A model generated the notes under the pieces. That model was given only the letters and a program-made list of their open reading frames with translations, was not told the origin of the DNA and did no database searches. Both the position numbers and the translations under genes were made by a program. 64,000 nt of DNA, taken from positions 1 through 64,000 of the forward strand of contig NZ_JAUSUQ010000008.1 in assembly GCF_030814135.1 (NCBI RefSeq), written 5' to 3'. Shown here one piece after another: positions 3,436 to 23,249 of the stretch. Source of the stretch: Caldalkalibacillus uzonensis (GTDB taxonomy: Bacteria; Bacillota; Bacilli; Caldalkalibacillales; Caldalkalibacillaceae). How positions within the stretch are numbered: position 1 is the stretch's first letter; every line of letters starts with the position of its first letter.

Positions 3436-4704
3436 ATGTTTAAATTTAATGACGAAAAAGGCCAACTGAAATGCTCATTTTGCGGAAAATCACAGGACCA
3501 GGTGCGCAAACTGGTAGCCGGACCTGGTGTTTATATATGTGACGAATGTATCGAGTTGTGTACTGAAATCGTGGAAGAGGAACTGGGCCATGAAGAGGAA
3601 CTGGATTTTAAAGAATTGCCTAAACCGCATGAAATCCGCAAGCATCTGGACGATTATGTGATCGGACAGGACATGGCCAAGAAAGCTCTGTCTGTTGCGG
3701 TGTATAATCACTATAAGCGCATCCGTTCCGGGGCTAGAAATGATGATGTGGAACTGGCCAAAAGTAACATTTTGCTCCTAGGTCCTACCGGAAGCGGTAA
3801 AACATTGTTGGCCCAGACTTTGGCCCGCGTTTTAAATGTTCCTTTTGCCATCGCTGATGCCACATCCTTGACCGAAGCCGGTTACGTGGGCGAAGACGTG
3901 GAGAACATCTTGCTGAAATTGATTCAAGCGGCCGACTACGATGTAGAGCGAGCTGAAAAAGGGATCATCTATATTGATGAAATCGATAAGGTGGCCCGCA
4001 AGTCAGAAAATCCGTCCATCACCCGTGATGTCTCCGGTGAAGGTGTGCAGCAAGCCTTGCTTAAGATTTTGGAAGGGACCACAGCCAGCGTACCTCCCCA
4101 AGGGGGACGCAAACATCCGCACCAGGAGTTTATCCAGATCGATACCACTAACATTCTGTTTATCTGCGGCGGTGCTTTTGACGGCATTGAACAAATCATC
4201 AAGCGACGCATCGGCAAAAAGGTGATCGGTTTCGGCACGACGGCAGAGAGCCGGGACTTAAAGCCAGGGGAATACCTGTCCAAAGTGCTGCCGGAAGACC
4301 TGCTCAAATTCGGCCTGATTCCGGAGTTTGTCGGTCGTTTGCCGGTCATCTCCACTTTGGAACCGCTGGATGAAGAGGCATTGGTCGAAATCTTAACCAA
4401 GCCGAAAAACGCGCTGGTGAAGCAGTACCAGAAGCTGATGGAAATGGACAACGTGGAGCTTGAATTTGAGGAAGAGGCCTTGCGTGCCATTGCTAAAGAG
4501 GCCATCAAACGCAACACAGGGGCCCGCGGATTGCGCTCCATCATTGAGTCCATTATGTTGGATGTCATGTTTGATCTGCCGTCCCGCTCCGACATTAAGA
4601 AATGCCTGATTACCAAGAGTGTAGTTGAAAATCAGCTTCCACCGGTCCTGATCACCACTGAAGGTGAAGTGGTGCAAAACGAAAAACCGAAGGAAAGTGC
4701 CTGA
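3436..4704 (+). CDS. clpX: ATP-dependent Clp protease ATP-binding subunit ClpX
   Basis: 422 residues. The N-terminal zinc-binding domain has CSFC (from Cys13) and CDEC as the two cysteine pairs. The AAA+ core has Walker A GPTGSGKT, Walker B IIYIDEID, sensor and arginine-finger regions, and the RIG-type pore loop (KRRIGKK) that binds ClpP substrates. I place the start at the ATG at 3436 ([10 protein letters not shown], as in B. subtilis ClpX) because AGAGGGG precedes it at normal spacing; an upstream in-frame GTG at 3427 lies within that ribosome site. Followed by a strong terminator. Confidence 0.97.
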
Positions 4705-19888: not shown

Positions 19889-19978
19889 AATAATCACCTT
19901 TTTTAGGCCTAAGAATGACATGTGGTGTCTATGACAGCATATGCAAGGGATAGATGAACTGATACAAAGTGTCGTTCC

Positions 19979-20050
19979 CTTTCGGAGAGAGTCCGAGAGA
20001 GGTTGGAGCAGTTCTTCCTAGAACTCCCGCCTTTAGGCATGGGAGGCTCA
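19979..20050 (+). mobile_element. orphan structured element resembling an IS200/IS605 right end / omega RNA
   Basis: Two hairpins sit in a gene-free stretch. The first is a full 8-bp stem CTTTCGGA (19979-19986) / TCCGAGAG (19992-19999) with one G-U pair. The second is CTCCC-GCC-TTTA-GGC-AT-GGGAG (20024-20045), followed by GCTCAG. A CCCGCCTTTAGGC-GGGAGG-TCA pattern is what I know from the right ends of many IS200/IS605 and IS607 elements, where it forms the 3' part of the TnpB omega RNA. No tnpA or tnpB gene lies here, so this would be a remnant or a solo element. Identification is by memory of the motif, not by alignment. Confidence 0.45.
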
Positions 20051-20060
20051 GAGACTGGGC

Positions 20061-20089
20061 TTGACGAAGGCAGGTATAGACAGTAAAAT
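20061..20089 (+). promoter_or_regulatory. sigma-A promoter of the valS T-box transcript
   Basis: TTGACG (20061-20066), exactly 17 bases, TAAAAT (20084-20089). The -35 begins 11 bases after the structured element that ends at 20050. The implied leader is about 480 bases, which accommodates the whole T-box. Confidence 0.75.
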
Positions 20090-20134
20090 AATGGTCAAAC
20101 ATAGATGTAGCGTAACGATTAACATCATCTCATA

Positions 20135-20470
20135 CAGATTGATGACAATGAGAGGGAAGAGTAAATAGCGGCGTCATTGCAGAGAGGAAAATGCGTGGCT
20201 GAAACATTTTCCATGACAAGGCTATTGAAGGTCGCCCTCGAGTCATTTTCCTGAACCTTGGCCCTAGAGGGGCAAGCAGTAAGGAAAATCGGTTGATCCG
20301 TTATCTCTTTGAGCGTACTTGTTCCTGACGGCTTATGGCAAGCGCCGGCCTCTTATGTGAAATCTGCACTGTTAATCCCTGACTTAGTGGCTGTTGGCCG
20401 TCGCAAGAGCAAGTAAAAAAAGGTGGTACCGCGGAGTCTCTTCGTCCTTTTGGGTGAGAGGCTTTTTTTA
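20135..20470 (+). promoter_or_regulatory. T-box riboswitch (valine) of valS
   Basis: The T-box sequence AGGTGGTACCGCGG lies at 20421-20434. Stem I can be traced: GAGGG pairs with CCCTC (20234-20238) at the base, AATAGC pairs with GCTATT (20221-20226) above the specifier loop, and the loop has AGTA on its 5' side and GAAGGTCG on its 3' side. The specifier triplet is GTC (20231-20233), a valine codon, in agreement with the downstream gene. Uncharged tRNA-Val would pair with the specifier and the T-box bulge and favour the antiterminator, so valS is read when charged tRNA-Val is scarce. Confidence 0.93.
20435..20469 (+). terminator. T-box terminator hairpin
   Basis: AGTCTCT (20435-20441) pairs with AGAGGCT (20457-20463, one G-U pair), with TCC/GGG extending inside, followed by seven T (20463-20469). 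It competes with the antiterminator that uses the adjacent T-box sequence. Confidence 0.85.
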
Positions 20471-20573
20471 ATTATACAGGTGTTTCTGCTGTTTAACTTG
20501 TTCACAAGCAAGTGATATCAAACAAATGTGCCAAAGTGAGACAAAAAGAAGTATGCCTGAAGGAGTGAACCTG

Positions 20574-23249
20574 ATGAATAACGACACACAATTATCTATG
20601 CCCACCAAATATGAGCCTCGTCAAACTGAGGGGAAATGGTATCAATACTGGCTGGATCATCAGTTTTTTAAGCCCAGCGAAGATCCGCAGAAAGAGCCAT
20701 TTACCATTGTTATCCCGCCGCCTAATGTGACTGGTCGTCTGCACTTGGGACATGCCTGGGATGGCACCCTGCAAGATATCATTATCCGCATCAAACGGAT
20801 GCAAGGCTACGATGCCTTGTGGCTGCCGGGAATGGACCATGCTGGCATTGCCACGCAGGCCAGGGTAGAGGCCAAACTGAAAGAAGAGGGCAAAACCCGC
20901 TATGATTTGGGGCGGGAAGCTTTCGTCAAGCAGGTTTGGGAATGGAAAGAAGAGTACGCTTCCGTGATCCGTGAACAATGGGCCAAGCTGGGCTTGTCCC
21001 TGGACTATTCCCGGGAGCGTTTCACTCTGGATGAAGGGCTGTCCAAGGCAGTCCGGGAAGTGTTTGTCCGCCTCTATGAGAAAGGGTTAATCTACCGGGG
21101 CAAATATATCATTAACTGGGATCCTGAAACCCGCACCGCATTATCAGATATTGAGGTCGAGTACAAAGAAATAAACGGTCATCTGTATCATTTGCGCTAT
21201 CCACTCGTTGAAGGCAGCGGTTCTATTGAAGTGGCGACTACGCGACCTGAAACAATGCTGGGAGATACGGCTGTGGCGGTACATCCTGAGGATGAGCGTT
21301 ACAAGCATCTGATCGGCAAAACGGTGAAGCTGCCCATTGTTGGCCGAGAAATCCCCATTATTGCTGATGAGTATGTCGATATGGCCTTTGGCAGTGGGGC
21401 GGTGAAAATAACCCCTGCCCATGACCCCAATGACTTTGAGATTGGACAGCGGCACAACCTGGAGCAAATTCTGGTGATGGACGAAAGCGGCCGCATGAAT
21501 GAGAACGCCGGTCCATATCAGGGCTTGGACCGTTTTGAATGCCGGAAATTAATTGTGAAGGATCTGCAAGATCAGGGGGTGCTGTTCAAAATTGAAGATC
21601 ACGTGCATAGTGTGGGGCACAGCCAACGGAGCGGGGCTGTGGTGGAGCCGTATCTCTCCACCCAGTGGTTTGTCAAAATGAAGCCGCTGGCTGAACAGGC
21701 CATCCGCCTGCAGCACGAAGCTGATACCAAGGTTAATTTCGTGCCGGAGCGCTTTGAAAAAATCTATCTGCATTGGATCGAAAATGTGCGCGACTGGTGT
21801 ATTTCGCGCCAGTTATGGTGGGGACACCGCATCCCAGCCTGGTATACACCGAACGGGGATGTAATTGTAGCTCGCACAGAGGAAGAGGCCACACACATCG
21901 CCCAGGAAAAATACGGCACAACAGACATTACCCAGGATGAGGATGTGCTGGACACCTGGTTCAGCTCCGGCTTGTGGCCTTTTTCCACCATGGGCTGGCC
22001 CGATGAGACAGCGGATATGAAGCGCTACTATCCCACGGATTGTCTGGTGACAGGCTACGACATTATCTACTTCTGGGTGGCCCGCATGATCTTTACAGCT
22101 CTGGAGTTCACCCACAGCCGCCCCTTTAAAGATGTGCTGATTCATGGCCTGATTCGCGACGCTGAAGGGCGCAAGATGTCCAAATCGCTGGGCAACGGAG
22201 TGGACCCCATGGATGTGATCGAGAAACACGGGGCAGATGCCTTGCGCTTCATGTTGGCCACGGGAAGTTCCCCGGGACATGACCTGCGCTTCCATTGGGA
22301 AAAGGTAGAAGCGGCCCGCAACTTTGCCAATAAAATTTGGAACGCTTCCCGCTTTGCCCTGATGAACCTGCAGGACTTTGACGGGGAAAAGACTGACATC
22401 AGCGGGGAACTGTCCACGCCAAACCGCTGGATTTTACACCGTCTCAACCATACCGTACGTGAGGTCACCAAACTGGCTGATCAATATGAGTTTGGTGAAG
22501 TGGGACGGCTCCTCTATCACTTTATTTGGGATGAGTTTTGTGACTGGTATATTGAAATGGCCAAGATTCCGCTGTACGGTGACGATGCCGGGGCCAAGCG
22601 GGAAACACAGGCTGTCCTTGCTTACACATTGGATCGGACACTGCGTTTGTTGCATCCGTTTATGCCCTTTATAACCGAGGAAATTTGGCAGCACCTGCCA
22701 GGCAGTGGAGCAAGCATCACAGTAGCCAGCTGGCCGGAAGCCAGAGCAGAGTTTGACCAGCCTGATGCAGAAAAAGAGATGGCTTTGATCATGGATGTGA
22801 TCCGGGCGGTGCGCAATATCCGCGCCGAAGTAAACGTGCCCCTGGGCAAAGCAGTAGATATCATGATTAAACCTTCCACTGTACACCATGAGCAATATTT
22901 ACGGGGAAATGAAGATATTATTGCCCGCTTAACCAATCCGCACAAACTGGAGATCAGCACGAATTTAGAGGTGCCGGAACAAGCCATGTCCTCTGTCGTC
23001 AGCGGGGCTGAAATTTATCTGCCTCTGGCTGGCTTAATCGATGTGGAGCAAGAACTGGCCCGACTGGATAAGGAAAAACAAAAACTTGAAGCAGAGGTGG
23101 CGCGGGCTGAGCAGAAACTTGCCAACAAAGGCTTTACCGCAAAAGCCCCGCAACATATTGTGGAGGCAGAGCGGGAGAAACTGAAGGATTATCAGGAACA
23201 ATTGCAGCAAGTACAAGAGCGGATCAATGAGTTGAAAAAAATGAGCTAA
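20574..23249 (+). CDS. valS: valyl-tRNA synthetase
   Basis: 891 residues. Class I synthetase that attaches valine to tRNA-Val and edits mischarged threonine. HIGH-type motif in [20 protein letters not shown] in [14 protein letters not shown], editing domain with [18 protein letters not shown], and a C-terminal coiled coil (about 820-888, rich in Lys, Glu and Gln) that contacts tRNA. Start at ATG 20574 after GAAGGAGTGAACCTG; an upstream in-frame ATG at 20526 lacks a ribosome site. Controlled by the T-box leader. folC follows 13 bases later. Confidence 0.97.

Follow-up and report, generated by a model that had tools for sequence, protein, structure and literature searches.

A probable relic of an IS200/IS605-type right end of the TnpB kind upstream of the valS promoter in Caldalkalibacillus uzonensis

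The TnpB guide RNAs that have been studied are about 150 nt long and span the 3' end of tnpB together with the right end of the element, their last 16 or so bases being derived from the flanking DNA (PMC8612924). Smaller derivatives are represented by a PATE-like element of Halanaerobium, which combines an IS605 left-end hairpin with a right end (PMC7290912). Here we describe a short intergenic region of C. uzonensis with partial likeness to such elements. It is located within a window of 64,000 nucleotides (positions 1 to 64,000 of contig NZ_JAUSUQ010000008.1, forward strand). The features referred to below are the following:

19979-19999, plus strand: hairpin 1, CTTTCGGA-GAGAG-TCCGAGAG, 8 pairs, -11.0 kcal/mol
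20014-20050, plus strand: right-end-like core, CCTAGAA-CTCCCGCCTTTAGGCATGGGAG-GCTCA, putatively the 3' end of the scaffold of a TnpB guide RNA, or an IS200/IS605-type right end
20024-20045, plus strand: hairpin 2, CTCCC-GCC-TTTA-GGC-(AT)-GGGAG, -12.0 kcal/mol, followed by GCTCAG
20039-20040, plus strand: AT bulge of 2 bases in hairpin 2
20048-20050, plus strand: TCA where right ends have their terminal triplet (TCA-G here), as at many TnpB loci; likely right border of the relic
20061-20089, plus strand: predicted valS promoter, TTGACG-17-TAAAAT, whose first bases overlap the supposed guide
20139-20452, plus strand: T-box leader of valS (Rfam RF00230, 121 bits), a neighbour outside the relic
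20526-23249, plus strand: valS, valyl-tRNA synthetase, a neighbour

The core, which sits just upstream of the valS promoter, is probably a decayed, dead or truncated IS200/IS605-type right end of the TnpB kind, with an insertion border at about 20050. According to this reading, an ancestral IS200/IS605-type copy would have been present directly upstream of the valS promoter and would subsequently have lost its tnpB gene and its left end along with the more upstream portion of the guide-RNA scaffold, so that the terminal hairpin and TCA would be left beside the old flank. Arrival by transposition and present inactivity are both deduced from the comparisons presented below.

Both hairpins are real, and the initial annotation had given the sequence of 19979-20050 correctly except for the bulge in hairpin 2, which was left out. 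The folding of the region as a whole is unremarkable against shuffled sequences, with z values of -1.63 for 19960-20080 and -1.23 for 19972-20052. In Markov sequence, a descriptor composed of GAA, a hairpin with TTTAG and TCA reaches the score of this site about 5 times per Mb when one strand is counted, and the shape alone is therefore not significant. As neither fold nor shape is remarkable, the case rests on sequence similarity to TnpB 3' ends. Both properties are also what would be expected under the main rival explanation, under which the hairpin ahead of the valS promoter would be an ordinary intergenic one that resembles a right end by accident; in view of the points weighed below, we consider this explanation unlikely, but not negligibly so. 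A search of 19900-20140 against Rfam gave no family above the gathering threshold, a null result that is uninformative because six comparison loci likewise have no right end flagged, and in five of these, right-end motifs are located next to tnpB-like genes or to the remnant of a tnpB.

An independent set of 80 TnpB loci selected by protein similarity was built because the virus loci collected earlier had been found with patterns derived from the window. The 3' flanks of these loci commonly contain GAA, a hairpin that often has a CTTTAG loop, and an (A)GTTCA or GTCA end. A model of 28 of the protein-selected 3' ends, designated R1, scores sequence only, without base pairs, since RNAalifold found none on the shaky alignment. 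With filters switched off, R1 ranks 20021-20050 first in the 64-kb window at 9.7 bits (E 0.13); with default filters this stretch is missed. In the comparison loci, R1 gives 12.5-19.6 bits, and among the matches listed for 29 of these loci almost all lie on right-end motifs. The low score relative to the comparison loci marks the window copy as a weak, probably decayed member of the family; it is also a point in favour of an accidental likeness. The site has a terminal hairpin with GAA before it, TCA after it and TnpB-flank-like sequence, the last with a weak model score (E 0.13). Similarity to some IS right end, on which the initial annotation had depended, exists by way of TnpB 3' ends.

In virus contigs, which were searched with window-derived patterns so that matches at the bases of the pattern are in part a circular result, the exact 22-base core GCCTTTAGGCNTGGGAGNNTCA is present at 16 sites, GAA precedes it at about the expected place in all 16, and a tnpB or tnpB-like gene is located upstream of it in L064, L069, L070, L071, L074 and L076. 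The reversed 22-base pattern has no site in the same contigs. This imbalance of 16 right-end-like sites versus none reversed argues against a chance resemblance, as does the occurrence of GAA and TCA at their expected places. A second pattern, to which the same circularity applies, recovered 12 stretches in virus contigs, most of them with tnpB directly upstream. L078, L079, L081, L084 and other loci with this arrangement end in TAGAANCCCCNGCCTTTAGGCNTGGGGAG..TCA and can be aligned with the window. Beyond the virus contigs, a genome-contig collection that possibly does not include the window's own genome lacks the exact 22-base hairpin, a search of 400 Bacilli genomes for a 25-mer with up to 2 mismatches hit the window's own genome alone, and a 121-base query had no BLASTN match in plasmids and phages. 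A 44-base query returned short matches only, to an Aneurinibacillus iscB gene at its 3' end (other strand) and to phage phiNIT1. Both carry a different motif, GCCCATCGCCTTTAGGCATGGGA, and were dropped as a source of the element; the motif is located at L058 3001-3019 at the iscB 3' end on the opposite strand and at L059 2501-2517 in an unannotated stretch of the Bacillus phage phiNIT1. Exact 17-mer matches in L060 and L061 were judged to be due to chance, and the fact that such short accidental matches occur counts on the side of the chance explanation.

One virus contig, IMGVR_UViG_2885633469_000002 (146 kb), contains the same right end three times (L066 6782, L071 7034, L076 841). Two of these right ends adjoin divergent tnpB-like genes, the protein encoded in L071 having no Pfam match, and L066 has no such gene nearby. 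Together with L071 and L076, L066 possibly represents a natural orphan guide RNA with TnpB in the same genome.

Within the genus, the valS locus was compared with that of one congeneric genome, G001, which belongs to a sister species. The right flank at 20052-20104 is identical there in 53/53 positions, the promoter TTGACG-17-TAAAAT included, and the conserved flank starts at 20052, 2 bases past TCA. The left flank is recognisable up to about 19970; the interval between the flanks is unalignable and is occupied in G001 by about 65 other, unrelated bases. The element is thus absent from the valS locus of G001, which speaks against an ordinary intergenic hairpin as its origin, and the interval has been replaced rather than leaving a clean empty site. 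In the initial annotation, conservation at the same place in many genomes would have counted against a mobile element; the one relative compared lacks the sequence, and unrelated bases stand in its place. The same gene neighbourhood was not found in further species among the genome contigs searched, and in the three remaining genomes of the order, the valS locus matches the window in short pieces only, mainly around the T-box. It may be noted separately that complete identity of the valS promoter region between two species is found here although the intergenic sequence just upstream of it cannot be aligned.

In the G001 genome as a whole, the C-terminal domain of TnpB is matched 37 times, and a single Y1 transposase is present. 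On contig C22 (L007, about 3950-4635), a broken tnpB terminates in AAGAATCCCCTGCCTTTAGGCATGGGGAGTGGTCAA, and the hairpin of this remnant, GAATCCCCTGCCTTTAGGCATGGGGAGTGGTCAA, is identical to the window core in 17/18 bases, with GAA before and TCA after it. That this match terminates the remnant of a tnpB gene in a congeneric species argues against an accidental likeness. The IS200/IS605 load of the two species differs sharply: against the 37 TnpB matches of G001, the genome of the window (G000) has one scrap and is without a Y1 transposase.

The window's genome (3.88 Mb, completeness 100%) contains a single copy of the element, which would also be compatible with a chance origin. Neither genes nor traces of a transposase or TnpB, and no similarity to TnpB, were detected in the 64-kb window, in agreement with the initial annotation, which had reported no linked transposase or nuclease gene. 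In the genome, no Y1 transposase and no PF01385 domain were found, nor an intact TnpB by Pfam and NCBIfam models, which a very divergent TnpB would escape. The sole TnpB trace is a C-terminal scrap of about 38 residues on contig C19, and its 3' flank has no right-end match. Adjoining this scrap are two short overlapping genes of 130 and 110 aa (L002 732-1453), which, judged by eye only, resemble a HEPN / minimal nucleotidyltransferase pair. Among the three options raised initially, a dead remnant therefore fits best, given the absent machinery and the likeness to TnpB right ends.

The second option, a solo element mobilised in trans, corresponds to a PATE-like miniature non-autonomous element with hairpin 1 as left end, hairpin 2 as right end and a transposase provided in trans. 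The presence of two hairpins inside about 70 bases and the precedent in Halanaerobium (PMC7290912) would be in line with it, but the complete genome lacks a Y1 transposase and a second copy, G001 has no empty site, and hairpin 1 matches no transposon end. We therefore regard this explanation as very improbable. In comparison with the TnpB-linked loci, nothing convincing was found for 19979-19999; this hairpin is unlike every end compared, its assignment as a left end was discarded, and it falls inside the interval that is unalignable with G001. As far as can be judged from the sequence, nothing ties hairpin 1 to the transposon end. The initial proposal that both hairpins belong to a right-end scaffold is thus supported for hairpin 2, which with its GAA and TCA borders is like TnpB ends, and not for hairpin 1.

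The third option was an RNA served by a TnpB-like protein encoded elsewhere in the genome, with the bases after 20050 as guide aimed at the valS promoter sequence. The core is like the 3' part of guide-RNA scaffolds and promoter bases come next; in addition, other orphan right ends occur in genomes of viruses, and one such genome also has tnpB-like genes beside the same end (L066, L071, L076). Against this, no intact TnpB accompanies the 38-residue scrap in the complete genome, and the tnpB 3' end, which is part of the published guide RNAs of about 150 nt (PMC8612924), is missing. The bases of the supposed guide belong to the native promoter region of valS, which is conserved in G001 although the element is absent there. 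The upstream part of a scaffold of about 150 nt is not recognisable, and the site therefore does not qualify as a functional omega RNA or reRNA with variable guide and bound TnpB, as far as can be read from the genome; a functional orphan guide RNA is accordingly rated slightly lower still than the PATE-like element. Lowest of all we place the idea that the right end is maintained to tune valS, as a small RNA or an element close to the promoter, and is served by a highly divergent TnpB-like protein that escapes the family models.

A dead right end of this kind is of little weight alone, since IS200/IS605 fragments are common. More general is the motif itself: GAA, a hairpin with CCTTTAGG and TCA together genuinely mark TnpB right ends, which Rfam leaves unflagged. 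As the motif is real and Rfam is blind to such ends, it can be used for spotting orphan right ends.

Compared with known systems, the relic shares with the Halanaerobium PATE-like miniature IS605 derivatives a right-end hairpin without genes, but in those a left-end hairpin can be recognised and the remainder of the IS is present in the genome as well (PMC7290912), neither of which was found here; the marks of a miniature IS605, namely a pair of left-end and right-end hairpins with either multiple copies or a transposase acting in trans, are likewise lacking. An orphan right end in a tRNA-rich stretch of virus contig IMGVR_UViG_3300036876_000145 (L057 5200-5362) has, like the window, no adjoining tnpB and the sequence CCTAGAA(T)CTCCCGCCTTTAGGC(G/A)TGGGAG(TA/GC)TCA; unlike the window, it has kept scaffold-like upstream sequence, which is common to the tnpB-linked copies in L079 and L087. 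The tnpB remnant on C22 of G001 agrees with the window in the hairpin and its GAA and TCA borders, but it has kept broken tnpB sequence upstream and has a CCCC/GGGG stem whose inner part is TGCC/GGCA. Intact IS200/IS605 ends differ from the window in several respects: here neither tnpB or its 3' end directly upstream, nor a left end, nor any trace of an upstream scaffold remains next to the core, the copy is single and the model score is low. Because the window has no TnpB similarity, the site is classed only as the relic of a right end and not as an intact one. With the TnpB-associated right ends of IS200/IS605 elements (IS605 / IS1341 type), which form the 3' end of reRNA or omega RNA, it has in common the GAA, the G+C-rich hairpin with CTTTAG loop and the TCA, in the same orientation as in right ends beside tnpB.
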